Assembly: GCF_038246755.1 (NCBI RefSeq)
Contig: NZ_CP134706.1
Location: 2,914,001-2,978,000, forward strand
Length of the DNA: 64,000 bases
From: Micromonospora sp. FIMYZ51
GTDB lineage: Bacteria > Actinomycetota > Actinomycetes > Mycobacteriales > Micromonosporaceae
Direction of reading: 5' to 3'
The first letter of the stretch is position 1. Each line of letters begins with the position of its first letter. Positions 3,275 to 53,989 of the stretch are shown here, piece after piece. The translations under genes and the position numbers were made by a program. The notes beneath the pieces are model-generated. The model was not told the DNA's origin, ran no database searches, and worked only from the letters and a program-made list of their open reading frames with translations.

Positions 3275-6200
3275 ATGGGTTCCTCGGTCGCAGAGGTGGT
3301 AGATGCGCTTCGCGCCTCGCTTCTGGAAAACGAACGCCTCCGGCAACAGAATCAACGGCTCAGCAGCGCCGCCACGGAACCACTGGCGATCGTGGGCATC
3401 GGCTGCCGCTACCCCGGGGGCGTACGCAACTGCGACGACCTGTGGCGGCTGGTCGCCGAGGGCCGCGACGCGATGTCGGAGTTCCCCACCGACCGGGGCT
3501 GGGAGAGCTTCCAGGTGCCGACCGCCCGGCAGGGCGGTTTCCTCTACGAGGCCGGCGACTTCGACCCGGCCTTCTTCAAGATCTCGCCACGCGAGGCGCT
3601 GACGATGGACCCGCAGCAGCGGTTGCTGCTGGAGACGTCGTGGGAGTCGCTCGAACACGCCGGCATCGACCCGTTGTCGCTGCGCGGCAGCCGTACCGGC
3701 GTCTTCATCGGCGGCTCCGCCCAGGAGTACGGCACCCTGCTGATGAACTCCGCAGATCCGTCGTCGGCGGCAGGCTACGCGCTTACCGGACTGCCCGGCG
3801 CGGTGCTCTCCGGCCGGGTGTCGTACGTGCTGGGTCTTGAGGGGCCGGCGGTCACGGTCGACACGGCGTGCTCGTCGTCGCTGGTGGCCCTGCACCTGGC
3901 CAGCCAGGCGCTGCGTACCGGCGAGTGTGACCTGGCCCTGGCCGGCGGTGTGCTGGTGCTGGGCACCCCGGCCATCTTCGCCGAGTTCGCGACCCAGGGC
4001 GGCTCGGCCGCCGACGGCCGGTGCAAGTCCTTCGCGGCCTCGGCCGACGGCACCGGATACGGCGAGGGCGTCGGCGTGGTCGTGCTGGAGCGCCTCTCGG
4101 ACGCGCGCCGTAACGGTCACGAGGTGCTGGCGCTGGTCCGTGGCTCGGCGGTGAACCAGGACGGCGCCTCCAACGGTCTGACCGCCCCGAACGGACCCTC
4201 CCAGCAGCGGGTGATCCGGTCGGCGTTGACGAATGCCGGCGTCGCCGCCTCCGACGTGGACGTCGTGGAGGCGCACGGCACCGGCACCACGCTGGGCGAC
4301 CCGATCGAGGCGCAGGCACTGCTCGACACGTACGGTCAGGAGCGTCCCGCCGGCCAGCCGCTCTGGCTGGGCTCGGTCAAGTCGAACTTCGGTCACACCC
4401 AGACCGCCGCCGGCATCGCCGGGGTGATCAAGATGGTGATGGCGCTGCGGGCCGGCGTACTGCCGAAGACCCTGCACGCCGAGGAGCCCACGCCGCATGT
4501 GGACTGGTCGTCGGGTGCGGTCGAACTGCTGACGCAGGCGCGGCGGTGGCCGGATCACGACCGCCCTCGGCGGGCGGGGGTGTCCTCGTTCGGCATCAGC
4601 GGCACCAACGCCCACGTCATCCTGGAGCAGGGGCCCGCCGACGAGCCGACCACCACCGACGCGCCGGGTCTGCCGGTGGTGCCCTGGGTGGTTTCGGGGC
4701 GGGGCGAGGCGGCCCTGGCCGAGCAGGCCGCCCGGCTGGCCGGGTACCTGGCGGACCGGACGGATGCCGCACCGGCCGACGTGGGTCTGTCGCTGGCACT
4801 GGGCCGTGCGGGCCTGGAGACCCGCGCGGTGGTGGTCGGGTCGAGCCTGCCGGAACTGCTGGCTGGTCTGCGGCAGGTCGGGGCCGGTACCAGCGTGGTC
4901 GCGGGCCGGTTGGGGGTCCTCTTCTCCGGGCAGGGGTCGCAGCGGCTCGGCATGGCCCGCGAACTGTATGCGGCGTACCCGACCTTCGCACGCGCCTTCG
5001 ACGAGGTGTGCGGGGAGTTCGACCTCCCGCTCAAGGACGTGATGTGGGGCGAGGACGCCGCGCTGCTGGACCGCACCCAGTACGCCCAGCCGGCCCTGTT
5101 CGCGGTGGAGGTGGCCCTGTTCCGGCTGGTCGAGTCGTGGGGCCTGCGGCCCGACGTGCTGATCGGTCACTCGGTGGGCGAGTTGGCGGCGGCGTATGTG
5201 GCGGGCGTGTGGTCGCTGGCCGACGCCTGCCGGGTGGTGGCGGCCCGTGGCCGGTTGATGCAGCGGTTGCCGGCCGGCGGGGTGATGTGGTCGGTGGAGG
5301 TGTCGGAGGCGGAGATTCGGCAGCTGCTCGTCGACGGTGTGTCGGTGGCGGCGGTGAACGGCCCGTCGTCCGTGGTGATCTCCGGCGCGACGGAGCCGGT
5401 CGCCAGGGTGGTGGCGGCGTGTGAGGGCCGCCGCTGCAAGCAGCTCGCGGTGTCGCATGCGTTCCACTCGGTGCTGATGGAACCGATGCTTGCGGAGTTC
5501 GAGCAGCTGCTCACGAAGGTGGAGTTCCGCCGTCCGGCGCTGCCGGTGGTGTCGAACGTGTCGGGTCGGGTCGCCGCCGAGGAACTGATGACGCCGGGCT
5601 ACTGGGTGAGCCAGGTGCGCGCCGCCGTACGGTTCGCCGACTGTGTGGCGACGGCCGTGGGCCGGGGCGTGTCCTCGCTTGTCGAGATCGGCCCTGGTGG
5701 GCTGGCGGGCCTGGCGGGCGCGTCGGTGGGCGACGCCGACGTGGCGGTGGTGGCGACCCTGCGCCGCGACCGCGGTGAGGCCGAGTCCGTGGTGTCCGCG
5801 ATCGGCGCGTTGTGGGCTCGCGGCATCCCGGTCGACTGGGCGGCGTTCTTCGCCGGCTCAGGTGCCCGGCGGGTCAGGCTGCCGACGTACGCCTTCCAGC
5901 ACACCCGCTACTGGGTGGAGGCCACATTCGACAAGGCGCCGGGCGAGCGCGTGCTCGACGGCGAGTTCTGGAGCGCGGTCGAGCGCGGCGACGCGGACGG
6001 CCTGCAAACCATTGTCGGCGCACCGGGTGCCTGGGACGAGGTGGTGCCGGCGCTGGCGCGTTGGCGACGGTCCCGCGTCGAACGCGGCCTGGTCGACTCC
6101 TGGCGCTACCGGCTGGTCAACCGCTCCGTCAGCGTCGGCTTCGGCGCCACGTTGTCGGGTACCTGGCTGGTGCTGCTGCCCGTCGCCGACCCCGTCGCGC

Positions 6201-9200
6201 ACGCGGACGACGTGGTGGCGGCCCTGCGGGGTGCCGGCGCGGACGTGGTGACGCTTACCGTGGCGGATCGGGCGGCCCTCGCCGGGGCCGGTGAGGTGAC
6301 GGGCGTGCTCTCGGTGGCGTCCGACGACCTGATGGCGTCGGTGGCGGTGGTGCAGGCCCTCGCGGAGGGCGGCGTGACCGCGCCGCTCTGGTTGCTGACC
6401 CGTGGTGCGGTCGGCCCGGACTCGGTCGTTGCGGAGCAGGCGCAGGTCTGGGCGCTCGGCCAGGTCGTCGGCCTGGAACGTCCCGGCACCTGGGGTGGCC
6501 TGATCGACCTGCCGGAGACCTGGGACGAGCGGATCGCCGCCGGTCTCGTCGGCGCGCTCGCCGATGGTGGCGGCGAGGACCAACTGGTGCTGCGCGCGTC
6601 GGGTGTCTTCGCGCGTCGGCTGGTGCGGGCCCCCTTGACCGGTACCGGTCGAGGGTGGTCGCCGCGCGGCACGGTGCTGGTGACCGGTGGCACCGGCGGT
6701 ATCGGTGCCCAGGTGGCTCGTTGGTTGGTGGGCCTGGGCGCGGAGCATGTGGTGTTGACCAGCCGTCGGGGTCTGGCGGCCGAGGGCGCGCAACAGCTCA
6801 GGACGGAACTGGAAGCCAGCGGCGCGCGGGTGACCGTCGCGACCTGCGACGTGGCCGATCGCGACGCGCTGGCGCGGGTGCTGGCCGACGTGCCCACGCT
6901 CACGGCGGTCTTCCACGTGGCGGGCGTGGCGACCTTCGGTGACGTGCTCGGCCTCGACGAGGCGCAACTGGCCGAGGCCGCGCACGGCAAGGTGGCCGGT
7001 GCCCGGAACCTCGACGAGCTGACCGGTGACCTGGACGCCTTTGTGCTCTTCTCCTCGGGCGCGGCGGTCTGGGGCAGCGCCGGCAATGCCGCCTACGCGG
7101 CGGCCAACGCCTACCTCGACGCGCTGGCGCAGCGGCGCCGGGAACGCGGACTGACCGCGACCTCGGTGTCGTGGGGCAGTTGGGGCGGCGGCGGCATGGC
7201 CGAGGGCTTCTCGCCCGAGGAGATGTCCCGGCGCGGGCTGCGGCTGATGGAGCCCCGGCTCGCGCTCGACGTGCTGCACCAGGCGATCGACCACGACGAG
7301 ACGCTGCTGACCGTCGTCGACATGGACTGGGAGAAGTTCACTCCCAGCTACACCATGGCCCGTCGTCGACCCCTCATCGAGGACATCCCCGAGGTCGCCC
7401 GGACGTTGAACGACACCACCGCAAGCGAGCGCGGCGACGATTCGGCCGCTGCCGCGCTGCGGCAGCGACTGGCGGGCCTGGCCGAACATTCGCAGCAGGC
7501 CGCCCTCCAGGACCTCGTGCGAACCGAGGCGGCATCGGTCCTCGGCCATGTTCGGGCCGACGAGATCGGCGGCCGGCTCTTCCAGGAACTCGGCTTCGAC
7601 TCGCTTACCGCGATGGAGCTGCGCAACCGGCTGGCCGCCGCGACCGGCCTGCGGCTGCCCACCAGCATCGTCTTCGACTATCCGACGCCGGTGGCGCTCG
7701 CCGAGCTGCTGCGTACGGAACTCTTCGGCAGCGCCGCCGAGCCGGTCGCGGCGACCCTCGCCGTCCGCGAGGCCGCCGACGATCCGCTGGTCATCGTCGG
7801 CATGGCCTGCCGCTTTCCGGGCGGGGTCGGCTCGCCGGAGGAACTGTGGCAGCTGGTCTTCGAGGGGCGCGACGAGATCTCCGACTTCCCCGCCGACCGG
7901 GGTTGGGAGTCCTGGCAGGTGCCCGGCATCCGCCAGGGGGCCTTCATGTCCGGCGCGGGCGACTTCGACGCGGCTTTCTTCGGTATCTCGCCGCGGGAGG
8001 CCCTGGCGATGGATCCGCAGCAGCGGTTGTTGCTGGAATGTTCGTGGGAGGCGTTGGAACGGACTGGGGTGGATCCGCTGTCACTGCGCGGCAGCCGCAC
8101 CGGCGTGTTCGTCGGCGGCGCCCCCCAAGAGTACGGAGCCCTGCTTGTCAATTCCGCCGAGGCGGCGAGTGGTTATGCGTTGACCGGTGCTTCCGGCAGT
8201 GTGATGTCGGGTCGGGTGGCGTACGTGTTGGGGCTTGAGGGTCCGGCGGTGACGGTGGACACGGCGTGTTCGTCGTCGTTGGTGGCGTTGCATCTGGCGG
8301 GTCAGGCGTTGCGTAACGGTGAGTGTGATCTTGCCCTGGCCGGCGGCGTGACGGTCATGTTCACGCCGAGCGGCTTCATGGAGTTCGACCGGCAGGGCGG
8401 GCTGGCCAGTGACGGCCGCTGCAAGTCCTTCTCGGCCGACGCCGACGGCACCGGCTGGTCGGAGGGGATCGGCCTGGTGGTGGTGGAGCGGCTCTCGGAT
8501 GCCCGGCGCAACGGCCATCAGGTGCTGGCGGTGGTACGCGGCTCGGCGGTGAATTCCGATGGTGCGTCGAATGGGTTGACGGCGCCGAATGGTCCGTCGC
8601 AGCAGCGGGTGATTCGGCAGGCGTTGGCGGTGGCGGGGGTTTCTGCGGGTGAGGTGGATGTGGTGGAGGCGCATGGTACGGGGACGACGTTGGGTGATCC
8701 GATTGAGGCGCAGGCGTTGTTGGCGACGTATGGGCGGGAGCGTCCGGCCGACCGGCCGCTGTGGCTGGGCTCCATCAAGTCGAACATCGCGCACACCCAG
8801 TACGCGGCAGGTGTCGCGGGGCTGATCAAGATGGTGATGGCGATGCGGCACGGCCTCATGCCGCGCACGCTGCACGTCGAGGAACCGACGCCCGAGGTGG
8901 ACTGGTCGACCGGTTGCGTCCGGCTGTTGACCGAGGCGCGCGAGTGGCCCGTCGGTGACAAGCCACGACTCGCCGGCATCTCCTCCTTCGGCATCAGCGG
9001 GACGAATGTCCACGTGATCATCGAGGAGCCGCCGGCTGAACTGGAGCCCGAGTTGGGGTCGGGTGGGGTGTTGCCGGTGTTGCCGGTGGTGCCGTGGGTG
9101 GTGTCGGGTCGTGGGGTGGGTGCGTTGCGGGATCAGGTGGATCGGCTTGTGGGGTTTGTGGGTGGTGGTTCTGGTGTGGGGGTGGTGGATGTGGGTGTGT

Positions 9201-12200
9201 CGTTGGCGGTGGGTCGGGCGGGGTTGGAGTCGCGGGCGGTGGTGGTGGGTGGGGATGTGGGGGAGTTGGTGGGGGTTTGGGGCGGGTGGAGTTGGGTGGG
9301 GTGGTGGGTGATGGTCGGGTGGGGTTTTGTTTTCGGGTCAGGGTTCTCAGCGGTTGGGTATGGGGCGTGAGTTGTATTCGTTGTTTCCGGTTTTTGCAAG
9401 GGTTTTTGATGAGGTGTGTGGTGAGTTTGATGTGTTGTTGGGGCGGTCGTTGAAGGAGGTGGTGTGGGGTGGTGATGTGGGGTTGTTGGAGCGTACGGAG
9501 TTTGCGCAGCCGGCGTTGTTTGCGGTGGAGGTGGCGTTGTTTCGGTTGGTGGAGTCGTGGGGTGTTCGGCCGGATGTGTTGGTGGGGCATTCGGTGGGGG
9601 AGTTGGTGGCGGCGTGTGTGGCGGGTGTGTGGTCGTTGGGGGATGCGTGTCGGGTGGTGGCGGCTCGGGGTCGGTTGATGCAGGGGTTGCCGGTGGGTGG
9701 GGGATGTGGTCGGTGGAGGTGTCGGAGGAGGAGATTGGGGGTTGCTTGTGGAGGGTGTGTCGGTGGCGGCGGTGAATGGTCCGTCGTCGGTGGTGATTTC
9801 GGGGGCGGTGGAGTTGGTGGAGCGGGTGGTGGCGGCGTGTGGGGGGCGGCGGTGTCGGCGGTTGGCGGTGTCGCATGGGTTTCATTCGGTGTTGATGGAG
9901 CCGATGCTTGCTGATTTTGAGCGGGTTTTGGTGGGGGTGGAGTTTTGTCGTCCGGTGTTGCCGGTGGTGTCGAATGTTTTTGGTCGGGTGGTGGGGGAGG
10001 AGTTGTTGTCGCCGGGTTATTGGGTGCGGCAGGTGCGGGAGGCGGTGCGGTTTGGTGATTGTGTGGATGTGGTGGTGGGTGGGGGTGTGGTGACGTTGTT
10101 GGAGGTGGGTCCGGGTGGGTTGGCGGGTTTGGTGGATCGGGTGGGGGTGGTGGTGTTGTCTGGTTTGCGTCGTGGTCGTGGTGAGTGTGAGTCGTTGGTG
10201 GGGGCGTTGGGTGGTTTGTGGGTGCGTGGGGTGTCGGTTGATTGGGGGGCGTTTTTTGCGGGTCGTGGTGGGCGGTGGGTGTCGTTGCCGACGTATGCGT
10301 TTCAGCATCGCCGCTACTGGATCGAGGCCACCATCGACAAGGCGGCCGGCGAGGGCGTGCTCGACGGCGAGTTCTGGACTGCGGTCGAGCGCGGCGACGC
10401 GGACGGTCTACAGGCGATGGTCGGCGCACCGGGTGCCTGGCCGGAGTTGCTGCCGGCACTGGCCCGCTGGCGTCGCTCCCGCGTCGAACGCGGGCTGGTC
10501 GACTCCTGGCGGTACCGGTTGGTCACCCGGCCCGTTCCGGTCGATGCCGACGCCAGGCTCGCCGGGACCTGGCTCACCCTGCTGCCCGCCGACGGCACAC
10601 GGGTAGACGAGATCGTGGCGACTGTTCGTGGCGCCGGGGCCGACGTCGAAGCCGTGGTGGTGCAGCCCGGCACGGATCGTGCGGCGCTGGCCCAGCAGTT
10701 GGCCGAGGTCGGCGAGGTCACCGGGGTGCTGTCCGTCGCCGCCGGTGATCTCATGGCGACGGTGGTGGTGATGCAGGCCCTGGCGGATGCCGGGGTGACC
10801 GCACCGCTGTGGGTCCTGACCCGTGGCGCGACGGCCCCGGGCACGGTCGTCCCGGAACAGGCACAGGTCTGGGCGCTCAGCCAGGTCTTCGGGCTGGAGC
10901 GCCCGGCGACCTGGGGCGGCCTGATCGACCTGCCGCAGGAGTGGGACGAGCGGATCGCCGCAGGCATGGTCGGCGCTTTGGCCGCGCACAAGGGCGAGGA
11001 CCAGCTCGTGGTCCGCCGGTCCGGGATCTCCGCCCGCCGGCTGGTACGCGCGCCGCTGGGCGCCACGGAAGGTCGTGGCTGGGCACCTCGCGGTACCGCC
11101 CTGGTCACCGGTGGTACCGGCGGCATCGGCGCACACGTGGCCCGCTGGCTCGCCGACCTCGGTGCCGAGAGCCTGGTGCTGACCAGCCGTCGCGGTCTTG
11201 CCGCCGAGGGTGCCCAGCAACTCAAGGACGAGCTCGAAGCGGCAGGTACCCGGGTCTGGGTGCGGGCGTGCGACGTGACCGACCGGGAGGCGCTCGCCGA
11301 ACTACTGGCCGACGTCCCCGACCTCACCGCGGTATTCCACGCCGCTGGCGTGGCCAGCTACAGCGAGGTGCTGCACCTGGACGAGGCCCAGCTCGCCGCG
11401 GCGGCGGCCGGCAAGGTCGACGGTGCCCGGAACCTCGACGAGCTCACCGGAGACCTGGACGCCTTCGTCATGTTCTCCTCCGGCGCGGCGGTCTGGGGCA
11501 GCGGCGGCCACGGCGCGTACGCGGCGGCCAACGCGTACCTTGACGCACTGGCCCAGCAACGCCGTGCGCGCGGCCGGACCGCGACCTCGGTGTCCTGGGG
11601 CGGTTGGGCATCCGGCGGCATGCTCGACGACAACGAGGGTGCCGGGGACCAGCTGACCCGGCTCGGCCTGCGGCTGATGGAGCCGCGTCTCGCGCTCCAG
11701 GTGCTGCACCAGGCGATCGACCACGACGAGACGCTGCTGACCGTCGTCGACATGGACTGGGCACGCTTCGCGCCCAGCTACACCATGGCCCGCCGCCGCG
11801 CTCTCATCGAGGACATCCCCGAGGTCGCCCGGGTACTCGGCGAAGACGAGGATTCGGCGCTCCACGAGGCGGCGACCGACGAACTGCGTCAGCGCCTGGC
11901 CGACCGGTCGGCGGCGGAGCGGCACGCGGAGCTGCTCAGCCTGGTGCGCGGTGCGGCGGCCGAGGTGCTCGGGCACTCCTCAGTGGAGGAGATCGCGCCG
12001 ACCAGGCCGTTCCAGGACTTCGGTTTCGACTCGCTCACCGCGATGGAGCTGCGTAACCGGCTCACCGCCGCGACCGGCCTGCGGCTGCCTGCCAGTGTCG
12101 TCTTCGACTACCCCAACCCGGAGAACCTGGCGGCGTACCTGCTCACCGAGCTTTTCGGCGCCGAAGCCGGCACCGACTCGCCGGTCGTGGCGGTCCGCGA

Positions 12201-15200
12201 CGCGGCCGACGATCCACTCGTGATCGTCGGCATGGCCTGCCGCTACCCGGGCGGCGTGGTCACGCCCGAGGAACTGTGGCGCCTGGTCTCCGACGGCCGC
12301 GACGGCATCTCGGACGTGCCGACCGACCGTGGCTGGCAGGAGCAGGGCGTCGGCGGCGGGATGCAGGGTGGCTTCGTCTACTCGGCAGGCGACTTCGACC
12401 CCGGCTTCTTCGGTATCTCGCCCCGCGAGGCCCAGTCGATGGATCCACAGCAGCGGTTGTTGCTGGAATGTTCGTGGGAGGCGTTGGAGCGGGCCGGGGT
12501 GGATCCGCTGTCACTGCGCGGCAGCCGCACCGGCGTGTTCGTCGGCGGCACCTCCCAGGAGTACGGCTCGGTGCTCGCCGCCGCGCCGGAGGCCGCCGAA
12601 GGGTTCGCGCTGACCGGCTCCTCCGGCAGTGTGATGTCGGGTCGGGTGGCGTACGTGTTGGGCCTCGAAGGGCCGGCGGTGACGCTCGACACCGCCTGTT
12701 CGTCGTCGTTGGTGGCGTTGCATCTGGCGGGTCAGGCGTTGCGTAACGGTGAGTGTGATCTTGCTCTGGCCGGCGGTGTCACGGTGCTGGCGACCCCGGG
12801 AGTGTTCGCGGAGTTTGATCGGCAGGGTGGGTTGGCTCGTGATGGGCGGTGTAAGGCGTTTGCGGCGGCGGCGGATGGTACGGGTTGGGGTGAGGGTGTG
12901 GGTGTGGTGGTGGTGGAGCGGTTGTCGGATGCGCGGCGTAATGGTCATCAGGTGTGGGCGGTGGTGCGTGGGTCGGCGGTGAATTCGGATGGTGCGTCGA
13001 ATGGGTTGACGGCGCCGAATGGTCCGTCGCAGCAGCGGGTGATTCGGCAGGCGTTGGCGGTGGCGGGGGTTTCTGCGGGTGAGGTGGATGTGGTGGAGGC
13101 GCATGGTACGGGGACGACGTTGGGTGATCCGATTGAGGCGCAGGCGTTGTTGGCGACGTATGGGCGGGGGCGTCCGGAGGGTCGGCCGCTGTGGTTGGGG
13201 TCGGTGAAGTCGAATATTGGTCATACGCAGGCGGCGGCGGGTGTGGCGGGGTTGATCAAGATGGTGTTGGCGATGCGGGCGGGGGTGTTGCCGAGGACGT
13301 TGCATGTGGATGAGCCGACGCCGCAGGTGGATTGGTCGTCGGGGGCGGTGGAGTTGTTGACGGAGGCGCGTCAGTGGCGGGTGGATGGTCGTCCGCGTCG
13401 GGCGGGTATTTCGTCGTTCGGGATCAGTGGCACCAATGCTCACGTGATCATCGAGGAGCCGCCGGCTGAACCGGAGCCCGACGACGAGAGCCGGTACGCC
13501 GACCCCACGGTGGTCGCGCCCTTGACCGGCGAGATCCCCGTACCGTGGCTGCTCTCGGGCGCCGACCGGGCCGGTCTGCGCGCCCAGGCGGAGCAGATCG
13601 CCGCGTTCGTCGACCGCCACCCGGAGCTACCGATTGCCGACGTGGGCCGGTCCCTCGCGTCGCGCTCCCGCCTGGCACACCGCGCGGTGGTCCTCGGCAC
13701 CGACCGGCCGAGCCTGCACGACGGCCTGCGCAACCTCGCCATCACCGGTACCACAATGGCCGACCCCCGGGTGGCGTTCGTGTTTCCGGGTCAGGGTGCG
13801 CAGTGGGTGGGGATGGCGGTGTCGTTGTGGGAGTCGTCGTCGGTTTTCGGTGGGTCGATGGTGGCGTGTGAGCAGGCGTTGACGCCGTTTGTGGAGTGGT
13901 CGTTGCGGGAGGTGGTGTTTTCGGGGGATGAGCAGTTGTGGGAGCGGGTGGATGTGGTGCAGCCGGTGTTGTGGGCGGTGATGGTGTCGTTGGCGCAGTT
14001 GTGGCGTTCGTGTGGTGTGGTGCCGTCGGTGGTGGTGGGTCATTCGCAGGGTGAGATTGCGGCGGCGGTGGTGGCGGGTGGTTTGAGCCTGGCGGATGGG
14101 GCCCGCGTCGTGGCGCTGCGCTCGCGGGTGATCGGTGAGGTGTTGTCGGGTGCCGGCGGCATGGTGTCGGTGGCGCTTCCGGCGGATGAGGCGTCTCGTC
14201 TGGTGGCGGAGTTCGAGGGTGTCGGGGTGGCCGCGGTCAACGGCCCGGCTGCGGTGGTCGTCTCGGGTGCGGTGGCCGGGCTTGACGCGCTGCTGGCCCG
14301 CTGTGAGCGGGACGGGGTGCGTGCGCGGCGGGTCCCGGTGGACTACGCCTCGCACTCGGATCAGGTCGACGCGCTTGAGGAACAGCTGCTGGCGGCGCTG
14401 GCGGAGGTGACGCCGGGGCCGTCGCGGCTGCCGATGATCTCCTCGGTCACCGGCGAGCTGATCGACACGTCGACCATGGACGCCCGGTACTGGTTCACGA
14501 ACCTGCGCGAGACCGTCCGCTTCGAGCCGGCCGTACGCGCGATGCTGGCATCCGGCTACCGGATCTTCGTTGAGGTGAGTCCGCACCCGGTGTTGGTTCC
14601 CGCCGTGCAGGAGTCGATTGACGCCACCCAGCTGGATGCGGTCGCGCTCGGCACGTTGCGCCGCGACGACGGCGGTCCGGGCCGGTTCCTGGCCTCGCTC
14701 GCCGAGGCATATGTGCGCGGGGCGACCGTCGACTGGTCGTTGTTCTTCGACGGTGCCCGCCGGGTGGACCTGCCGACATATGCATTCCAACGTCGACGGT
14801 TCTGGCTGCGGGGGCAGACGTCGGGGGCGGCCGGCGGGTCGCTCGACGGTGAGTTCTGGACCGCGGTGGAGCGCGGCGACGCCGATGGCCTGGAGACCGT
14901 GGTGGGCGCGGCGGGCCCCTGGGGCGAGGTGGTGCCGGCGCTGGCGCGGTGGCGGCGGTCCCGCGTCGAACGCGACCTCGTCGACTCCTGGCGCTACCGG
15001 CTGGTCAGCCGACCGGTCACGATGGGCGCCCGAAGCGCCCTGACCGGAACCTGGCTCGTGCTGCTGCCCGCCGAAGCCCGTGGCGTGCGCACCGGCGACG
15101 TGCTGGCGACGCTTCGCGCTGCTGGTGCAGATCCGCAAGTGTTTGTGGTGTCGGACCGGGGCACCCTGGCCGGCGAACTGGCGCAGGTGGGCGAGGTCGC

Positions 15201-16863
15201 CGGGGTGCTCACGCTGGCGACCGGCGACCTGATGGCGTCGGTGGTGGCGGTGCAGGCGCTTGCGGACGCGGACGTCACGGCACCGATGTGGCTGATCACC
15301 GAGGGCGCGGTGCCGCCCGGTGTGGTGGTACCGGAGCAGGCGCAGGTGTGGGCGTTCGGCCAGGTGGTGGGTCTGGAGCGGCCCAACACCTGGGGTGGCT
15401 TGGTCGATCTGCCGCCGACCTGGGACGACCAGGTGGGTGCCGCTCTGGTGAGCGTGCTGGCCGGCGGTGGCGACGGCGAGGATCAGCTGGTGCTGCGGCC
15501 ATCGGGTGTGTTCGCGCGTCGCTTGGTGCGTGCTCGGCTCGACGGTGGCGGTCGGGGTTGGTCACCGCGCGGCACGATCCTGGTCACCGGTGGCACCGGT
15601 GGTGTCGGGGCGCATGTGGCGCGGTGGCTGGTGAGCTTGGGCGCGCCGGAGCTGGTCCTGACGAGCCGGCGGGGGTTGGCGGCGGAGGGTGCCCGGCAGC
15701 TCGTAGCGGAGCTGGAGGCCGCCGGGGCGCGGGTGACGGTCGCGGCCTGTGATGTGGCTGACCGGGACGCCCTGGCGCGGTTGTTGGCGCAGATTCCAGA
15801 CCTGTCGGCGGTCTTCCACGCGGCTGGTACGACGGCGTTCCGCCAGGTGGTGGAGAGCACGGCGGAGGACTTTGCGGAGGTGCTGGCGGGCAAGGTGGCC
15901 GGTGCGCGCAATCTTGATGAGCTGGTCGGTGCGGTGGATGCCTTCGTGATGTTCTCCTCGGGGGCGGCGGTGTGGGGTAGTGCGGGTAACGGTGCCTATG
16001 CGGCGGCGAACGCGTTTCTCGACGGCCTGGCGCAGCAGCGTCGTGCGCGTGGTCTGACGGCGACGTCGGTGTCCTGGGGTGGTTGGCAGGACACCGGGAT
16101 GGCCGGTGACCAGACCGGGCAGCTGTTGAGTCGGCTCGGTGTGCGGTTGATGCCACCGAGGCTCGCGCTTGCGGCCCTGTTCCAGGCGATCGACCATGAT
16201 GAGACGCTGCTGACGGTTGTGGATATGGATTGGGAGCGTTTTGCTCCGGGTTACACAATGGCCCGCCGTCGAGCTCTGATCGAGGACATTCCCGAGGCCG
16301 CCCAGGCGATCAGTGGTGACCTCGCCGGGCAGACCCTCGACGAGACGGCCAGCGCCGAACTACGCCAGCGGCTGGTCGACGTCGATCCCGGCGGGCAGCA
16401 CGCCATCCTGCTCGACCTCGTACGGGCCGAGGCGGCCACGGTGCTGGCGCACGACGACGCGCTCGCAATCGACGAACATCGCCCGTTCCAGGATCTGGGC
16501 TTCACCTCGCTGACCGCGGTGGAGTTCCGCAACCGGCTGCGGGCCGCGACCGGCCTGCGGCTGCCCGCCACCCTCGTCTTCGACCACCCCAGCCCCGGCG
16601 CCCTCGCTGTCGAGCTGCGTACGCAACTGCTCGGCGCCGGCTCCGCCGAGCTGGCGAACGCCGTCGACATCGGGCACGAGCTGGCCCGCATCGACCGCGC
16701 CATCCCGCTGGTCGACCTGGACACCCACGCCCGGGACGAGATCGTCGACCGGCTCCGCGAACTCATCAGCAAGCTCGGCGGCACCGCATCGATGGCCGAC
16801 CTGAATTCCGCCTCCGACGACGAGATCTTCGACTTCATCGACCGCGACCTCGGTGTGTCCTGA
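3275..16863 (+). CDS. Modular type I PKS, three modules: (KS-AT-KR-ACP)x3 (PKS-B), reading frame broken in the second AT
   Basis: Starts at ATG 3275 behind GGGAG. A coiled-coil N-terminal docking segment ([19 protein letters not shown]) precedes KS1, whose active Cys is codon 3869-3871. AT1 (GHSVGE, HAFH) predicts malonyl. The KR has a dimerisation element ahead of it ([11 protein letters not shown]), a TGGTGGIG loop, no LDD and a VWGS Trp, so it is A-type. The ACP follows near 7500-7740. Module 2 is KS 7780-9020, AT 9320-10310 (GHSVGE, HGFH; malonyl), A-type KR and ACP. Module 3 is KS 12210-13450, AT 13760-14800 (GHSQGE, YASH; methylmalonyl), A-type KR and an ACP with GFTSL instead of GFDSL. 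The C-terminal docking tail is [16 protein letters not shown]. As read, the frame breaks at homopolymers near 9271, 9325, 9699 and 9737, leaving open frames 3275-9370, part of 9327-9914, and 9697-16863. Adding one base at each site restores about 4,530 residues, so I treat it as one gene. Confidence 0.9.
9011..10325 (+). repeat. Long repeat R1, copy a (KS end and AT of PKS-B module 2), G+T-rich skew tract
   Basis: About 1,315 bases match 22772-24087 with, by my reading, a single T length difference (four T at 9325-9328, five at 23086-23090). The coding strand from about 9050 to 10310 is almost wholly G and T, unlike the GC-balanced flanks. The identity ends sharply at the AT-to-linker border (HRRYWIE). 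Confidence 0.85.
12817..13471 (+). repeat. Repeat R2, copy a (C-terminal half of KS, PKS-B module 3)
   Basis: About 655 bases appear identical to 22148-22802. The tract is strongly G+T rich on the coding strand. A shorter related stretch lies at about 8540-8745 in PKS-B module 2. Confidence 0.8.
13767..14126 (+). repeat. Repeat R3, copy a (N-terminal half of AT, PKS-B module 3)
   Basis: About 360 bases match 18601-18960 with one mismatch that I can see (ACGCCG against GCGCCG, near 13882). G+T-rich tract encoding the start of a methylmalonyl-type AT, through GHSQGE. Confidence 0.8.
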
Positions 16864-16909
16864 ACGCACCGCTGCGGTTCTGATCACTTGTATTGAAGTG
16901 AGGTAACCG

Positions 16910-27610
<10,701 letters not shown>

Positions 27611-28974: not shown

Positions 28975-29007
28975 CACCCACACCCGCGCTGAGTGTGAGG
29001 AGAATCC

Positions 29008-33723: not shown

Positions 33724-33751
33724 ATCCCTACGGAGGGAGAATGGTCTCGCC

Positions 33752-34987
33752 ATGCGCGTCCTGATTGCCACCCATTCCGACAGATCGCATTTCTACAGCA
33801 TGATTCCGTTGGCCTGGGCCCTGCGTACCGCCGGTCACGAGGTGCGGGTGGCCTCCCAGCCGGCGTTGACCGATGACATCACGCAGGCCGGCCTCACCGC
33901 CGTGCCGCTGGGCACGGACCACACCCTGCACGAACAGCTGCGGCAGATGAGCAAGGAGGACTGGTCGGGCGGCTTCTCCCATGGCGACGCGGCGGAGCCG
34001 CCGGCCACCTGGGAGGCGCAGGGAATGCTGTACCGCGCCTTCGTCGAGTTCTACATGAAGGGCGTCAACAACGACTCCTTCCTCGACGGACTGATCGCCT
34101 TCGCTGGTCACTTCAAGCCGGACCTGGTGATCTGGGAACCGTTCACGTTCGCCGGTCCGGTTGCCGCCCGCGTCGTCGGTGCCGCGCATGCTCGGCTGCT
34201 CTGGAGCCCCGACCTGTTCAGCGGGATGCGCGAGACCTTCCTGCGCCTGCGGGACGAACAACCCGCCGATCAGCGGGTGGACCCGTTGGCGGCGTGGCTG
34301 GGGCCGGTGCTGGCCCGGCACGGTCTCGAGTTCACCGAGGACACCGCGGTGGGGCAGTGGACCATCGACCCCACCCCGGAGAGCAGCCGGCCGCCCCTGG
34401 GGCACCGGATCGTGCCGGTGCAGTATGTGCCCTACAACGGCCCTGCGGTGGTGCCGGAGTGGCTCCACGCGCCGGCCGCCAAGCCCCGGGTCTGCCTGAC
34501 CGGCGGCCTGACGCTGCGGGAGCAGATCGGGCGGGACCCGTTCTCGGTGGCACAGCTGGAGATGTTCGCCGACCTCGACATCGAGCTGGTGGCGACCCTG
34601 AAAGCGGACGCGGACGGCGCGCCGCCGGCGATCCCGGCGAACACTCGGCTGGTCGACTACGTGCCGATGCACGCATTGCTGCCCACCTGCGCGGCCATCG
34701 TGCACTACGGCGGTGGCGGGACCTGGAGCACCGCGGTCCGCGCCGGCGTGCCGCAACTACTGATCGCACGCAGCTGGGACGTCGTCTACAAGGCCAAACA
34801 CCTGAAGGAGTACGGCGCCGGGCTGTTCGTCGACAGCGAGTCGCAACTGCGGGACGCGTTGGTGCGGTTGCTGGCGGAGCCGTCGTTCCAGGAATCGGCG
34901 AGCCGACTGCGGGACGAGGTGCTGAGCGATCCCACGCCCAACGAGCTCGTGCCGATCCTCGAGAAGCTGACCGCCGAACACCGGTAG
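33752..34987 (+). CDS. Macrolide glycosyltransferase (DesVII/EryCIII-like, GT-B fold)
   Basis: A 411-residue GT-B enzyme. The N-terminus resembles the macrolide glycosyltransferases of the DesVII/EryCIII group closely (IPLAWALRTAGHEVRVASQP, then WEPFTFAGPVAA near residue 128). The C-terminal donor site has VPMHALLPTCAAIVHYGGGG near 305-325. I chose ATG 33752; GGAGG lies at 33732-33736, a long spacing. The gene follows the 3-dehydratase by 28 bases and closes the operon. It should attach the trideoxyhexose to the aglycone. DesVII and EryCIII need a P450-like helper (DesVIII, EryCII); no gene in the window looks like one. The perfect hairpin 17 bases downstream ends transcription. Confidence 0.92.
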   Translation: MRVLIATHSDRSHFYSMIPLAWALRTAGHEVRVASQPALTDDITQAGLTAVPLGTDHTLHEQLRQMSKEDWSGGFSHGDAAEPPATWEAQGMLYRAFVEFYMKGVNNDSFLDGLIAFAGHFKPDLVIWEPFTFAGPVAARVVGAAHARLLWSPDLFSGMRETFLRLRDEQPADQRVDPLAAWLGPVLARHGLEFTEDTAVGQWTIDPTPESSRPPLGHRIVPVQYVPYNGPAVVPEWLHAPAAKPRVCLTGGLTLREQIGRDPFSVAQLEMFADLDIELVATLKADADGAPPAIPANTRLVDYVPMHALLPTCAAIVHYGGGGTWSTAVRAGVPQLLIARSWDVVYKAKHLKEYGAGLFVDSESQLRDALVRLLAEPSFQESASRLRDEVLSDPTPNELVPILEKLTAEHR

Positions 34988-35003
34988 CACCCGCCGCGCA
35001 CGG

Positions 35004-35033
35004 AAATGGCTCCCGACGGGTCGGGAGCCATTT
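35004..35033. terminator. Bidirectional terminator between convergent operons
   Basis: A perfect 13-base stem (35004-35016 with 35021-35033) and four-base loop CGGG. The stem begins AAATGG and ends CCATTT, so it offers T-rich ends in both directions. It lies between the convergent glycosyltransferase and ferredoxin genes. Confidence 0.8.
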
Positions 35034-35046
35034 CGTCGTCGCCGCC

Positions 35047-35268
35047 TCAGAAGCTCGTGACGGCCTCGCCGGTTTCGGTGTCGACGATGCTGATCGCCTC
35101 GACCGGGCAGGATTCGGCCGCGTCGAGCAGCGTGTCGTCCGGTGCCACCTCGGACCGCAACGGGTGGGACCGCCCGTCGCTGCCCAGGGCGAAGTGCTCG
35201 GGCGCGCTTCCCACGCAGCAACCGGCGCCGGCACAGGTCTGAGCCACGTTGACCCGCCACGTCGTCAT
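35047..35268 (-). CDS. Small ferredoxin, 3Fe-4S type
   Basis: About 73 residues. The cysteine pattern CAGAGCC (first and last as ligands, with an extra Cys before the last), the following APEHF and a distal CP in ESCPVEAI fit the 3Fe-4S ferredoxins that donate electrons to actinobacterial P450s. I placed the start at ATG 35268; an in-frame GTG at 35280 would overlap the P450 stop and add four residues. It is co-transcribed with P450-2 at one-codon-scale spacing, so it is likely that enzyme's donor, and possibly that of P450-1 and the 3-dehydratase. Confidence 0.9.
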   Translation of the reverse strand: MTTWRVNVAQTCAGAGCCVGSAPEHFALGSDGRSHPLRSEVAPDDTLLDAAESCPVEAISIVDTETGEAVTSF

Positions 35269-35273
35269 GGCGC

Positions 35274-36479
35274 TCACCACGTGATCGGCATGGACTCAAG
35301 CCCTCGGATCATCGACGAGGACTTGCGCCTGAGTTCGGATTCGGGCACGGCGAGCCGCACATCGGGCATCCGGCGGAACAGCGCGCTGAGCGTCTCCTGT
35401 AGCTCGACGCGGGCGAGTTGAGCACCCAGGCAGTGATGTATGCCGGCGCCGAAGCCGACCTGGGGGTTGTCGGCGCGGTCGAGGTTGAGCTGGTCCGGGT
35501 TGTCGAAGACGGCCGGGTCCCGGTTGGCGGCGGCGAGCGAGGGGATGACGATCGCACCGGCGGGGATGGTGACGCCGTTCACCTCGACCTCGGCCGTGGT
35601 GATCCGGGGCAGTCCGTCCCCGGTCGCGGTGATCGGGACGAAGCGCAGCAGTTCCTCGACCGCACGGGGAATCCCGTCCGGGTTCGCCCGCAACCGCGCG
35701 AACTCCTCGGGGAACCGCAGCAGCGTGAGCAGGAACATGTTGATCTGGTTAGCGGTCGTCTCGTGCCCAGCGCTGAGCAACCCGATGCCCAGCGCGATCA
35801 ACTCTCGTTCCGAGAGCTTGTCCTCGTCATCCTTGGCCCGGATCAGTGCGCTCAGCAGATCATCTGCGGGGTTGTTGCGCTTGTCGACGATCAGCCGGCC
35901 GAGGTACGCGATGAGCGCGACCGCCGCCTCCTCCTTCTCCTTTGCTCGCGTCCAGTCACCGAGCAGGCCGTTGGACCATTTGTGGAACTCCCCCTGATCT
36001 GCGGCCGGCACGCCGAGCAGATCGCAGATCACCCGGACCGGCAGCGGCAGGGAGAAATTCTGCACCAGGTCGACGGGGCGGGGCAGCGACTCCATCCTGT
36101 CCAACAGCTCCGCGACCATTCGAGCGACCCGTGGACGCATTTCCTCGACCCGCCGCGCGGTGAATTCGCGGGAAACGAGCTTGCGCAGGCGGGTGTGCTG
36201 CGGAGGATCCGTCCCGATCAACGACTCGTTCGTGAGCTTCCCCAGCTCGGATTCGGACAGGGCCATCATGGCGGCGGCCACCCGACTGCTGAACCGCGGG
36301 TCGACCAGCACCTTGCGGACGTCGGCGTAACGGGTCACCAGCCAGGCGCTCGTGCCGTCGGGCAACGTGACTTCGGCGACCGACCGTTCTTCGCGGATGC
36401 GGCTGAGCTCCGGGGAAAGCTCGTAGACAGACGGGGGCTCCGGGAACGGAAACGGGATTGGTGAAAGGGTCTCGGCCAT
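35274..36479 (-). CDS. Cytochrome P450 (P450-2), polyketide tailoring
   Basis: A 401-residue soluble P450. It has the I-helix AGHETT (about residue 240), ExxR as EELLR (about 283) and the heme loop [10 protein letters not shown], with cysteine near residue 350. I chose ATG 36479 (GGAG nine bases upstream) over an ATG at 36515 that adds twelve residues. The gene is read towards the ferredoxin and away from PKS-D, with its own upstream TAGGGG boxes. Likely role: a second oxidation of the macrolide. The substrate and site are not predictable here. Confidence 0.92.
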
Positions 36480-36550
36480 GAGCAACAACTCCGCCCGGTT
36501 GAGGATTGGCGACATGCCGAAGCATAGATAATTTCGAATAATACTGACGT

Positions 36551-36574: not shown

Positions 36575-36581
36575 TTCGACA

Positions 36582-39500
36582 CTAGATCTGTTCTTTCTTC
36601 GCCAGGGCGAGTTCGATCAGGGCCGCGGCGTCCATCGATTTGATCTCGTCGCTGCGGTCGTCGGAGGTGGGTGTCCCCGAGGCGCCGTCATCGGATTCGG
36701 TGCCGGTCAGGTCGAGCAGCGCGTCAAGCAGATTGGCCGCGCGCAGCCGGGCCAGGGGGATGCTGAGCAACGCCGCCCGGACCTGTGCCTCCTGCGGCTC
36801 GTGCTGCGCCGGTGGCGGGCCCTCGCCGTCGGGGCAGAGCTTCGCCAGGAGCAGCTCGGTCACGGCGCCGAGGCTGGGATAGTCGAAGACGAGCGTGACC
36901 GGCATCCGCAGCCCCGTCACGGCGTTGACCCGGTTGCGCAGCTCGACGGCGGTGAGCGAGTCGAAGCCGAGCTCGCGGAAGGGACGATCGGCCTCCAACT
37001 GGTCGGGTGAGGCGTGCCCGAGCACCGCGGCTACCTGGCCGCGTACGAGCGAGAGCAGCATGTCGTAGCGGTCGGCCCGGTTCATGCCCGCGAGTCGCTG
37101 CTTGAGTGCTCCGGCATCCTGGGCACCGGTCTGCGCGGCCCGCCGGGTCGCCGACCTGACCAGGCGCTGTAGCACCGGCGGCGGCGTGGCCTGGCTGCTC
37201 TGCGTGGTCAGGGCGGCACGGTTGAGGCGCATCGGAAAGAGCACCGCCTGCTTCGAGCGCCAGCCGACGTCGAACAGGGCGAGACCCTCGTCGACGGGCA
37301 GTGGGGCGACCCAGCGCAGCGAGGTCTGTGCCAGGTTCGCCTCGTTGAGCTGGCCGGCCATGCCGCTGCGGGCGGCCCAGAGGCCCCACGCCAGGGAGCT
37401 GGCGGGCAGCCCCTGACTGCGACGATACTGTGCCAGGGCGTCCAGGAAGGTGTTGGCACCGGCGTAGTTGCCCTGCCCGGTACCGCCCAGCGTGCCCGCC
37501 ACCGAGGAGAAGAGTACGAACGCCGAGAGGTCGAGGTCCTTGGTGAGCCGGTGCAGGTGCAACGCCGCGTCCACCTTGGGCCGGAAGACCCGGTCAAGCT
37601 TCTCCGGGGTCAGCGACGCCAGCAACCCGTTGTCGACAGTTCCCGCGCAGTGCACGACCGCGGTCAGCGGATGCTCGGGGTCGATCGTGGCGAGCAACGC
37701 CGCCAGTGCCGCGCCGTCGGAGACGTCGCAGGCGGCGATGCGTGCGTTCCCGCCGAGGTCGTTCAGTTCGCGTTGGAACTCACCGGCGTCCTCGGCCTCG
37801 GGGCCGCGTCGGCTCACCAGCAGGAGCCGGCGCAGACCGTGCTTGCGGAGCAGGTGCGTGGCCACCATGCGTCCCAGGCCACCGGTCGCTCCGGTGATCA
37901 GCACGGTGCCCTCGGGATCCGCGGCGGCCAGGTCCGCCCCGGGCGCGTCGTCGCCGGGAGCCACGTCGGACACCCAGGTGAGGCGGGGGACCAGCGCCGC
38001 ACCGGCGCGCAGCGCCAACTCACGCTCGCCGGTGGCGACGGCGGCCGACAGCGCCGCCCAGGACTCGTCGAGGTCGTCGAGGTCCAACAGGATGATCCGG
38101 TCCGGGTTCTCCGACTGGATCGAGCGGACCAGCCCCCACACGGCGGCTGCGGCCAGGCCGCAGACGGGTTCGTCGTCGCGGGTGGCCACCGCGTTGCGGG
38201 TCGCCACGACGAGGGGACGGTCGGTGAGACCTTCGTCCAGGGTGTCGCCGAGCCACGCGGTGGCCGCGTCGATGAGCTCGATGGCGGCGGTACGAGCCGC
38301 AGCGGCCACGGTCGCGGGGTCGTCCAGCTCGCCCGCCACCGTGGTCAGGTCGAGGACGACCGGGCCGGACAACTCGGCTGCGGCGAGGGCGCCGAGGTCA
38401 CCGGGACTGATCACCGTCGGCGCGCCCACCCCGTGCTCGGCCGGCAGGGGCAGCGGCTGCCACTCCAGACCCAGCAACGAGCCGGGGGCGGCAGTGCCGC
38501 CCGCCGCGACCTCGTCGGCCGTGAAGGGACGCAGGTGCAGTGATTCGACCGAGATGACCGGAGCGCCCCCGGCATCAGCGGCCGTCAGCGAGATGGCGTT
38601 CGGGCCGGCGGGCGCGAGGCGGACCCGCAGCACCGACGCGGCGACCGCGTCGACGCAGACGCCGTTCCAGGCGAACGGCCGCCACAGGGTGCCGGGGGCC
38701 GAGGGAAGCAGGTGGCCCACGCCGATGGCCTGTATCGCAGCGTCGAGCAGTGCCGGGTGCAGCGCGTACTCGCTTGCCTGGTCCTGAAGGGCGGCAGGCA
38801 GCCGGACCTCGGCGTACACCTCGTCGCCGCGCTGCCAGGCGGCCTGTAGGCCGTGGAACGCCGGGCCGTAGTCGATCGCGGTCCCGGCCATCCGCTCGTA
38901 GATGTCGCCCACCTCGACCGGCGTGGCGCCCACTGGCGGCCACGCGCTGAGATCGGCCGGCTCCTGCTGCCGGGCGGAGTTGCTCAGCACGCCGTCACCG
39001 TGGCGCGTCCACGGCAGGTGGGACGGGTCGCTGGTGCTGCTCTCCGGCCGCGAGTGCAGGTGGAAGGCGCGCCGTCCCGACTCGTCGGGGGCGTCGACGG
39101 TCAGCTGCACCCGCACCGCGCCGGTCTCCGGCAGCAGCAGCGGAGTCTCCATCGTCAGCTCGTCGATGCGGTCACCGCCGACCCGGTCACCGGCGAGCAC
39201 CGCCAACTCGACGAAGGCGGACCCGGGCAGGGGACAGGATCCCATGACCCGGTGATCGGCCAGCCAGGGATGACTGTGCAGGGAGAGCCGGCCGGTAAGC
39301 ACCACGCCGTCGTCGTCCGCCATCGGTACCGCCGCACCCACGAAGGGGTGGTTGACCACATCGAGACCGACCGTGGAGACATCGCCAGCCAGCTGATGCG
39401 GTGGCAGCCAGTAGCGCTGGCGTTGGAACGGATACGTCGGCAAACCCACCTGACCACCCACACCCAACAACCCACCCCAACCCACACCCACACCACCCAC

Positions 39501-42116
39501 CCACACCCGCCCCAACGACTCCACCAACCGACCCCAACCACCCTCACCCCGCCGCAACGACCCCACCACCACCGCATCAACACCCACATCATCCACCACC
39601 TCCTGCACCGACCCCACCAACACCGGATGCGGACTCACCTCCACAAACACCCGCCCACCCGCACCCAACGCCGCCCGCACCGCACCCTCAAACAACACCG
39701 GCTCCCGCACATTGCGCCACCAATACCCCGCCCCCAACTCCACCCCAGACACCACACCCCCGTCACCGACGAAAAAACGCCACCGACCCCACCCGCCCAC
39801 ACACCGACCCCAACCCCACCAACAACTCCTCCCGCACCACCTCCACCACCCCCGTATGACCCGCACCATTCGCCCCTCCACCACCCGAGCCCGCACACCA
39901 TCACCCACACACCCCGCCACAAACTCCCGCACCAACCCCACCTCACCCGCCACCGTGCACCCCACCGGCGAATTCACCGCCGCCACCGACAACCCCGACC
40001 ACCCCACCAACCGCCCCTCCAACACCGACCGCGACAACGACACCGACGCCATCGCCCCCAACCCCGCCAACCCCAACCACGCCCGCGACCGCACCACCAC
40101 CACCCGCACCGCATCCGCCAAACTCACACACCCCGCCACAAACGCCGCCGCCACCTCACCCTGCGAATGCCCCACCACCCCCACCGGCTCCACCCCCACC
40201 GACCGCCACACCGCCGCCACCCCCACCATCACCGAAAACAACACCGGCTGCACCACATCAATCCGATCCAAACCCACCCCACCCACACCCCGCACCACAT
40301 CCACCACCGACCAATCCACCCACCGCCCAAACTCCACCGCACACTCCCGCACCGCCACCCGAAACACCTCAGACGACTCCCACAACACCCCACCCATCCC
40401 CACCCACTGCGAACCCTGACCACCAAACACAAACACCACACCACCACTACCCGCGAGCGCACCGGCGGCCCTACCGTCGGCCAGGTCCCGCAAGCCGTCG
40501 AGCATCTCCGCGCGATCGGCGGCCGTCACCACGGCCCGATACTCCAACGGCGAACGCTCAGCGAGCGCTCGTCCGACGTCGAGCAGGGAATGCTCCTCGT
40601 GTGCCGCGGCGAACGTGTGCAGCTGAGCCGCGACCGCACGAAGTCCGGCCGCACTGCGCGCCGACAGGATCCACGGCGTCACCGGCAGGGCGGGGACGGC
40701 ATCGGCACCGGGGACCTCGTCGGTGGCCCAGACCGGCGCCTCCTCGAGGATGACGTGTGCGTTGGTGCCACTGGCGCCGAACGACGAAACGCCGGCCCGA
40801 CGTGGCCGGCCGTCGGCCGGCCAGTCGCGGCCCTCGCGCAGCAGTTCGACGGACCCGGCGGTCCAGTCCACGTGCGACGTCGGCTCGTCGGCGTGCAGCG
40901 TGCTGGGCAGGTGCCCGTTGCGGATCGCCAGCACCATCTTGATCACACCCGCCACACCGGCCGCGTACTGGGTGTGGCCCAGATTCGACTTCAACGACCC
41001 CAGCCAGAGTGGCCGGTCAGCGGGGCGGTTCTGGCCGTACGTGGCGAGCAGCGCCTGTGCCTCGATCGGGTCGCCCAACGTGGTACCGGTGCCATGCGCC
41101 TCGACCACGTCCACGTCAGCGGCGTTCAGACGGGCGTTCTCGAGCGCGCTCAGCAGCAAGCGACGTTGTGCGGGCCCGCTCGGCGCGGTCAGCCCATTTG
41201 ACGCGCCGTCGGAGTTGACGGCGCTGCCGCGTACCACCCCCAGAACGGGGTGGCCGAGCCGTCGCGCGTCGGAGAGCCGTTCGACCGCGAGGACGCCGAC
41301 GCCCTCGCCCCAGCCGGTGCCGTCGGCCTTTTCCGAGAACGCCTTGCACCGGCCGTCGCTGGCGAGGCCGCCCTGACTGGAGAGTTCGGGGAAGGCGGTC
41401 GGGGTCAGCATGACCGAGACTCCGCCGGTCAGGGCGAGATCGCACTCACCACGGATCAGCGCCTGCACCGCCAGGTGCAGGGCCACCAGCGACGACGAAC
41501 ACGCCGTGTCCACGGTCAGGGTCGGGCCCTCGAGACCCAGCACGTACGCCAGCCGGCCGGCGAGCATGCTTCCCGCGCTGCCGGTGAGCAGATGGGTGCC
41601 GTGGCCCAGCGGCGAGGAGCCGAGCAGGCCCGCGAACTCGGCGGAGGTGCCGCCCACGAAGACACCGGTGCGGCTGCCGCGCAGCGCCACCGGGGCGATG
41701 CGGGACCGCTCCAGCGCCTCCCACGAGCATTCCAGGAGCAGTCGCTGCTGCGGGTCCATCGCGAGCGCCTCGCGCGGCGAGATGCCGAAGAAGCCCGCGT
41801 CGAAGTCGCCAGCGGCGTGCAGGAAGCCGCCTTCGAGCGCGACGACGCGCCCCTCCTCGTACCTGTCCGTTTTATACAGGTCGGTCAGATCCCAACCGCG
41901 GTCGGTGGGAAAACCGGCGATGGCGTCCCTACCCTCGGCGACCAGGCGCCAGAGTGCCTCGGGTGAGTCGACGCCGCCAGCGAACCGGCAGGCCATACCC
42001 ACGATGGCGATCGGCTCGTGGGCCTTTTCCTCCACCTCACGCAGTCGCCGCTGGAGTTGTCGCGCGTCGGCGATCGTCCGCTTGAGGTAGTCGCGAAGTC
42101 GGTCCTCCTCGGACAC
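36582..42116 (-). CDS. Modular type I PKS, one module: KS-AT-DH-KR-ACP (PKS-D)
   Basis: The start is the second of two GTG codons (42116; AAGGAG nine bases upstream), 50 bases after PKS-E. The N-terminal docking helix is [20 protein letters not shown]. The KS has TACSSS. The AT has GHSQGE, but when its local frame is repaired the usual YASH position reads GAGH, unlike malonyl or methylmalonyl ATs. The DH has [10 protein letters not shown]. The KR has TGATGGLG and VDN where LDD is expected. The ACP has GFDSL. The C-terminal tail ([18 protein letters not shown]) is of a different docking type from the other subunits. The frame looks open throughout, yet about 40 AT residues are scrambled because homopolymers at 39873-39876, 39772-39777 and 39757-39761 each seem one base short. 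The three shifts cancel. Repaired length is about 1,845 residues. Confidence 0.9.
39430..40445 (-). repeat. Skew tract (GRINS-like) in the AT of PKS-D
   Basis: The plus strand is almost only C and A over about 1 kb, so the coding strand is G+T rich. It covers the AT from its FGGQGSQ start to its end. Edges are approximate. Three probable homopolymer shortfalls lie inside. Confidence 0.7.
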
Positions 42117-42166
42117 CGGCACCAGCTCCTTGGCGGTAGGTCGGGAAGCTTCTCAGTCGGCGGCGG

Positions 42167-53989
<11,823 letters not shown>

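Follow-up and report, generated by a model that had tools for sequence, protein, structure and literature searches.

Genetic repeats of intense nucleotide skew (GRINS) entered the literature in 2021 through a PNAS paper that reportedly left both their origin and the reason for their skew unexplained. As described in the relevant passages of PMC9899208, PMC10394414 and PMC11907408, GRINS are regions of ~0.5-2 kb in cis-AT polyketide synthase (PKS) genes of actinobacteria, mainly in AT and KS domains, that have high identity with another region of the same PKS and strong GC and TA skew; excerpts of two further papers (PMC10661043 and PMC11915812) mention GRINS once. Promotion of module recombination by GRINS has been proposed in the literature. 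Skew polarity is not discussed in the passages of the three former papers, where skew enters as an absolute value or is just called "high", a statement that does not extend to the defining 2021 paper.

We analysed a 64,000-nt stretch (hereafter the window; bases 2914001-2978000) of the single-contig 7.05-Mb genome of Micromonospora sp. FIMYZ51, which has a completeness rating of 99.99%. The window contains the terminal part of a plus-strand PKS arm, with a thioesterase at the arm's end, a minus-strand PKS arm and a P450/deoxysugar block (27772-36515). This block comprises two P450 genes (27772-28971 and 35277-36515), an NDP-hexose 2,3-dehydratase-like stretch, an epimerase-like protein and an RfbH-type dehydratase (score above the model cut-off); the P450 and deoxysugar genes suggest that the product is a glycosylated polyketide. 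Other genes encode a relative of the macrolide-binding ATPase MABP-1 model (54451-55764, minus strand; full-length match of 461.7 bits, below the cut-off of 800), a large protein with a LuxR-type DNA-binding region at its C-terminus (56381-59161, plus strand; weak model match) and, at the cluster edge, a ParA/MinD-like ATPase (60945-61928, plus strand; weak model match). P450 relatives reach at most 65% identity among the best 80 of 192 for one query and 56% for the other, and these searches returned no orthologous cluster for comparison. No PKS entry exceeds 53% identity among the 120 listed of 6879. A second assembly of the cluster was not found in the searched set, outside which records of the same or very near genomes may lie.

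An earlier note on this DNA had listed seven stretches in the two PKS arms with coding strands almost free of A and C, normal flanks and conserved protein, and had interpreted them as GRINS of high density. All seven are strongly skewed (300-nt windows), with coding-strand GC skew of ~+0.32 to +0.77 and TA skew of ~+0.24 to +0.82, compared with a window mean near 0.05. Skewed spans are 9001-10350, 12751-13350, 13801-14250, 18601-19050 and 22051-24150 in plus-strand genes, and 39301-40500 and most of 45901-47700 in minus-strand genes. On the chromosome, tracts of plus genes and tracts of minus genes are opposite in polarity even where just a few kb separate them. The tracts and weaker duplicated regions of the window are as follows.

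7921-8460, plus strand: weaker duplicated KS region (mean absolute skews 0.21 and 0.32)
8999-10331, plus strand: tract A, KS-AT linker and AT, G/T-rich coding strand; frame changes at ~9270-9741
9327-9704 and 9751-10113, plus strand: AT pieces of tract A, in two frames (Pfam AT search)
12796-13481, plus strand: KS C-terminal half and linker start, G/T-rich coding strand (5 substitutions in 686 columns against 22127-22812)
13766-14133, plus strand: first part of AT, G/T-rich coding strand (6 substitutions in 371 columns against 18597-18967)
15751-16410, plus strand: weaker duplicated region, KR end and ACP (mean absolute skews 0.21 and 0.23), partner-like to 20611-21240
18597-18967, plus strand: first part of AT, G/T-rich coding strand, skewed partner of 13766-14133
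20611-21240, plus strand: weaker duplicated region, KR end and ACP (mean absolute skews 0.20 and 0.26)
22127-24093, plus strand: tract B, KS C-terminal half (22127-22812), linker and AT (22760-24093), G/T-rich coding strand; frame changes at ~23031-23503
39407-40453, minus strand: tract D, whole AT in two pieces, G/T-rich coding strand; at ~39798-39871 the frame differs from that of the surrounding AT
42943-43476, minus strand: catalytic KR, C/A-rich coding strand (mirror polarity); Pfam KR match 42938-43465
45912-47198, minus strand: tract C, linker and AT, G/T-rich coding strand; frame changes at ~46397-46779
47298-47692, minus strand: KS C-terminal part adjoining tract C, coding strand G/T-rich; differs from an inverted plus-arm KS by 7 substitutions over 395 columns
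49237-49770, minus strand: catalytic KR, C/A-rich coding strand, copy of 42943-43476; Pfam KR match 49235-49759

The contrast with the flanks was borne out at fourfold-degenerate sites (2566 tract codons and 10501 outside codons of the same genes, frame-broken zones and the KR pair being excluded from both): tracts have 71.5% G, 18.0% T, 10.1% C and 0.5% A, compared with 43.9% G, 7.1% T, 44.1% C and 4.9% A outside. Amino acids are shifted too (e.g. Val is 17.1% in tracts and 8.9% outside). With both fourfold sites and residues shifted, the recoding acts at the DNA level. The 400 kb of genome examined holds 28 skewed tracts, while the unique KS, AT, DH, ER and KR domains of the same genome (120 of 120 pieces, one KR structural piece excepted) are without strong skew.

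We then applied the recipe given in the PMC9899208 passages (150-nt windows, step 30, >80% identity over five windows, at least 500 bp and mean absolute skews >0.15), with identity partners sought across 400 kb and not restricted to one PKS. This gave 35 duplicated regions in 360 kb, 29 of which pass the skew criterion. Thirteen duplicated regions of at least 500 bp and >80% identity lie in the window, and 12 of them, 540 to 2370 bases long, pass as GRINS, so the identification made in the earlier note stands. Nine of these 12 exceed 0.25 in both means, the level of the stronger definition in the PMC10394414 passages (skews >25%, ~1 kb); the three weaker regions are 7921-8460, 15751-16410 and 20611-21240. 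Coding-strand polarity is not uniform across the set: the KR pair is C/A-rich and the other strong window tracts are G/T-rich. Among 150-nt windows that are at least 95% identical to DNA elsewhere, 227 are skewed and 17 are not, against 61 skewed and 1824 unskewed below 95%; at 99% identity or more, skewed windows outnumber the others by 211 to 13, and odds ratios run from 60 to 399 across identity thresholds. This coincidence of skew and repeat identity is far beyond chance, and the tracts, which match the definition in the passages of PMC9899208 and PMC10394414, belong to a known element type, GRINS. Their absolute density is high, though within what is usual in the genus: near-identical DNA, skewed or not, makes up 3.0 to 29.3 kb per 60 kb in 12 relatives, so the window is rich, not exceptional.

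Copy relations were examined in near-identical segments, defined by a minimum identity of 96% in 100-column windows and a minimum length of 200 columns. There are 32 such segments, with 226 substitutions and 46 gap events in 25268 columns, and at this threshold partners lie within the same PKS island or are mutually adjacent at 2.986 Mb. The main copy pairs that involve the window have 1 to 9 substitutions per 534 to 1334 columns, and shorter side segments (200 to 395 columns) have 3 to 8. Some partners are on opposite strands, up to ~87 kb away. The partners of tract C are three plus-arm tracts in inverted orientation, ~78 to 88 kb away, from which it differs by 7 to 9 substitutions over alignments of 966 to 1121 columns. 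Tract D pairs with a plus-arm AT, also inverted and ~46 kb away; their 1051-column alignment has one substitution and two gaps, of 3 and 4 bases. Between tract C and the next island, 56 kb away, the listed matches around frame breaks reach at most 87%. Tract edges lie near domain edges: the KR pair coincides with the Pfam KR match within ~15 bases, tract D with the AT, and tracts A, B and C with the AT plus ~270 to 330 bases of linker. Near-identity is limited to the tracts, as would fit a part of GRINS in gene conversion or in the diversification of related clusters. Because a crossover between inverted copies would flip the intervening DNA, non-crossover conversion would be the simplest reading. 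The sequence supports past gene conversion between tracts, as distinct from a causal role of skew in recombination.

We also analysed the polarity of the tracts. The earlier note had placed the skew across KS, AT and KR domains; skewed KR tracts do exist, but the strongest (42943-43476 and 49237-49770) were absent from its list and are C/A-rich, with reverse polarity. These two KRs, from two minus-arm modules, share 526 identical bases and differ by 4 substitutions in 534 columns. Coding-strand skew of the pair is -0.53 (GC) and -0.31 (TA). In the 356 codons of the pair, fourfold sites are 88% C, and Thr (17.4%) and His (10.7%) together make up 28% of residues, compared with 5.6% and 1.9% outside. 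Both match Pfam KR with E ~1e-56, and what we take to be the KR active-site and LDD motif residues are readable in the translation. The G/T-coding tract C is located between the two C/A-coding KRs, and its KS part (47298-47692) shares one open frame with the upstream KR (49237-49770). Both KRs and tract C are probably in one gene, with the frames 42167-46393 and 46721-54187 split by assembly errors. GRINS of both polarities beside each other, probably in one gene, are one of two additions made here, the other being the frame breaks within tracts.

In the same genome, the near-identical pieces include 23 of AT, all G/T-coding, and 15 of KS, of which 13 are G/T-coding; C/A coding is absent from both and occurs in 2 of 4 KR entries (a broken domain contributes several pieces to these counts). 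Searching the genus with the KR tract as query returned loci of 29 relatives, 8 of them strongly C/A-coding there, and among eleven relatives chosen by the AT tract none is C/A-coding, both sets having been selected by queries that themselves carry a polarity. In the regions of five C/A relatives, repeated domains are C/A-coding for AT (18/19), ER (4/6), KR (13/14, from four of the five) and KS (1/17, the other 16 being weak), and none is G/T-coding. Clusters of G018, G110, G116 and G107 have C/A-rich coding strands in every repeated AT, ER and KR domain. Twelve other single-contig relatives (hand-picked for AT-dense islands, 60 kb each, the G064 stretch being already known to match) have 89 G/T-coding repeated domains and one C/A-coding, so the C/A form looks rare. 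A rule by which domain type sets polarity (AT always G/T, KR always C/A) was rejected because of G/T-coding KR tracts in G137; it is also contradicted by the C/A-coding AT tracts of the KR-selected relatives.

Protein conservation, also claimed in the earlier note, holds piecewise, but the frame changes within the AT tracts at ~9.27-9.74, 23.03-23.50, 39.80-39.87 and 46.40-46.78 kb. Elsewhere in the genome, frame changes are found at 2.873, 2.876, 2.881, 2.907, 3.017, 3.026, 3.033 and 3.046 Mb. Frame-tolerant alignment of 42 KS(-AT) stretches in 400 kb gave changes in 12 of 20 stretches with a tract (30 changes) and in 3 of 22 without (one each); the reference proteins themselves come from three of the 42 stretches (two tract-bearing, one tract-free), which can therefore show no break, and with these removed the counts are 12 of 18 and 3 of 21. 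Thirty of the 33 changes are in tracts, and 11 of the 12 affected tract-bearing stretches hold 2 to 4 changes each. By eye, the three breaks outside tracts are a boundary of two genes and two repeat-like linkers. Ala-, Thr- and Pro-rich linkers of this type, with an apparent frame change, connect PKS domains at 2.8919-2.8921 and 2.754 Mb of the genome, outside the window. Pfam searches return ten AT domains and two KS domains, all from two neighbouring islands, as separate pieces.

The nature of the changes was followed in a first run on 21 chosen stretches, which gave 31 changes, all in near-identical skewed DNA: 24 are the loss of one base, and 4 and 3 are of other kinds. For 29 of the 31, the DNA around the site has another copy that is at least 99% identical and differs by 0 to 2 substitutions; for one of the remaining two the best copy is at 96%, and for the other the four matches listed reach 79%. 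Single-base gap events in near-identical pairs occur mostly (32 of 41) in runs of 5 or 6, 29 of these being G, in a count where one site may enter through several pairs. For one run-bearing break site the genome also holds intact copies, whose flanks are almost identical, and several sites are altered alike in all copies. The 109 G or C runs of at least 5 in unique domain DNA show no changes. Miscounting of G runs by composition alone was considered and is insufficient: repeated skewed domain DNA holds 164 G or C runs of at least 5, and the near-identical pair at 2.731/2.737 Mb has ~ten G runs of 5 per copy, with no gap and no frame change.

Relatives served as controls. One of 55 stretches is changed in 11 relatives that match tract C, and one of 129 in the other 12, for which two references were used, not three; the breaks are in G008 and G149, respectively, the latter in a context unskewed by eye. 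No single-base gap in a long run was found in the 11 relatives (up to 8 segments per genome), and none in runs of at least 5 in near-identical pairs of the 12. Two forms of a run-bearing motif have 5 and 3 copies in this genome and 0 and 2 in the other 159 genus genomes, too few for an assembly comparison. According to the passages of PMC6923854, PacBio-only and Illumina-corrected assemblies of three Streptomyces genomes differ mostly by single homopolymer bases. The frame changes are most likely assembly errors confined to near-identical repeats, and the simplest reading is that run errors in the consensus were left uncorrected where short reads cannot be placed. The modules are thus, for now, not to be called broken. 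GRINS could be an assembly blind spot, with 12 of 20 tract-bearing stretches broken despite a single contig and 99.99% completeness; if the changes are artefacts, annotation would label probably working modules as broken.

We consider it highly probable that the tracts are GRINS that have been gene-converted between modules, and that the frame changes are most likely assembly errors. Domain-sized blocks in type I PKS genes would be driven to a G/T-rich strand and kept near-identical by repeated gene conversion among modules of one cluster, oppositely oriented ones included, and small run-length assembly errors would arise in repeats where short reads cannot be placed. More speculatively, the G/T-rich strand, whichever strand it is, may be a good substrate for a strand-exchange protein, which would account for the rare C/A-coding form beside the usual one. 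It is very unlikely that the skew is ordinary codon bias, or mutation bias tied to the transcribed or replicated strand, and that the repeats are just conserved domains. Most skewed tracts in the genus are indeed G/T-rich on the coding strand, as transcription-linked bias would give; however, the same genes are unskewed outside tracts, unique domains of the genome are almost all without strong skew, plus- and minus-strand tracts a few kb apart are opposite in chromosome polarity, and polarity relative to transcription is reversed in the KR pair, whose amino acids are shifted too. Skew both ways in one arm, probably in one gene, argues against replication- and transcription-strand explanations, and the outcome that the earlier note had named as refuting, a codon bias common to all the genes with no link between skew and repeat identity, did not occur. 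Recent module duplication with incidental skew has somewhat more in its favour and is still improbable: modules of one PKS are related, and an end-to-end alignment of 4 kb contains tracts A and B, but its identity averages just 85%, against 5 substitutions in 1334 columns for the tracts themselves, which leaves the flanks less similar. The partners of C and D, moreover, are inverted and only domain-sized, and windows of at least 99% identity are overwhelmingly skewed. Duplication could be the source of some copies.

That the frame changes are real, with modules decayed or rescued by G-run slippage and the changes spread by gene conversion, seems no more credible than codon bias. The changes are present in the assembled sequence, the same site recurs in several copies, as conversion of a real change would produce, and the unbroken pair at 2.731/2.737 Mb indicates that runs are not always miscounted. 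Yet the affected stretches mostly hold several changes each with almost no substitutions between the same copies, a dozen domains are hit across two neighbouring islands, unskewed stretches give only the three single candidates at a gene boundary and in linkers, and relatives with such tracts are nearly free of changes. Assembly error is accordingly the reading that we prefer, although the unbroken pair, the 7 of 31 changes that differ from plain loss of one base and the sites altered alike in all copies count against it.

Tracts of both polarities have one strand with 67-70% G+T. Measured against single-base shuffles, which do not control for coding, TGGTG occurs in tracts at two to three times the shuffle level (~13 to 14 per kb for both polarities; unskewed domains have 1 to 2 per kb), and alternating GTGTG stays at the shuffle level (181 against 205; 173 against 131) and is not clearly enriched. 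G-quadruplexes were considered as a common feature and are a weak candidate (1.33 motifs per kb in G/T-coding tracts, 0.55 in C/A-coding tracts and 0.02-0.06 in unskewed domains). As both forms share one G/T-rich strand, a replication or transcription bias fixed to one strand is insufficient alone to produce the skew. By analogy, a recombinase preference for G/T-rich DNA might explain it, and the G/T-rich strand as a recombination substrate would then be the testable explanation left for GRINS skew. A broader and tentative idea, to which we give clearly less than even chances, is that GRINS come in two polarities, possibly within one gene, and that the G/T-rich strand rather than the codons is conserved; the tracts would then be a DNA-level substrate of the strand-exchange machinery that imposes amino-acid changes (e.g. 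the Thr/His-rich KR) as the price of interconvertible modules.

Compared with known systems, the tracts resemble GRINS, as described in the available passages of PMC9899208, PMC10394414 and PMC11907408, in size, in their setting in cis-AT PKS genes of an actinobacterium, in high identity with another region of the same PKS, in strong GC and TA skew and in a location mainly in AT and KS. They differ from the GRINS of those passages in that one KR pair is opposite in polarity to an AT tract of the same arm. The second likeness is to the GT repeats or GT-rich DNA favoured by RecA and Rad51 (cited in passages of PMC5948810), which both tract polarities recall through a G+T-rich strand with abundant TGGTG. 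It is an analogy of mechanism, not of family, and with GTGTG at shuffle level the tracts differ from the GT repeats of that cited work.
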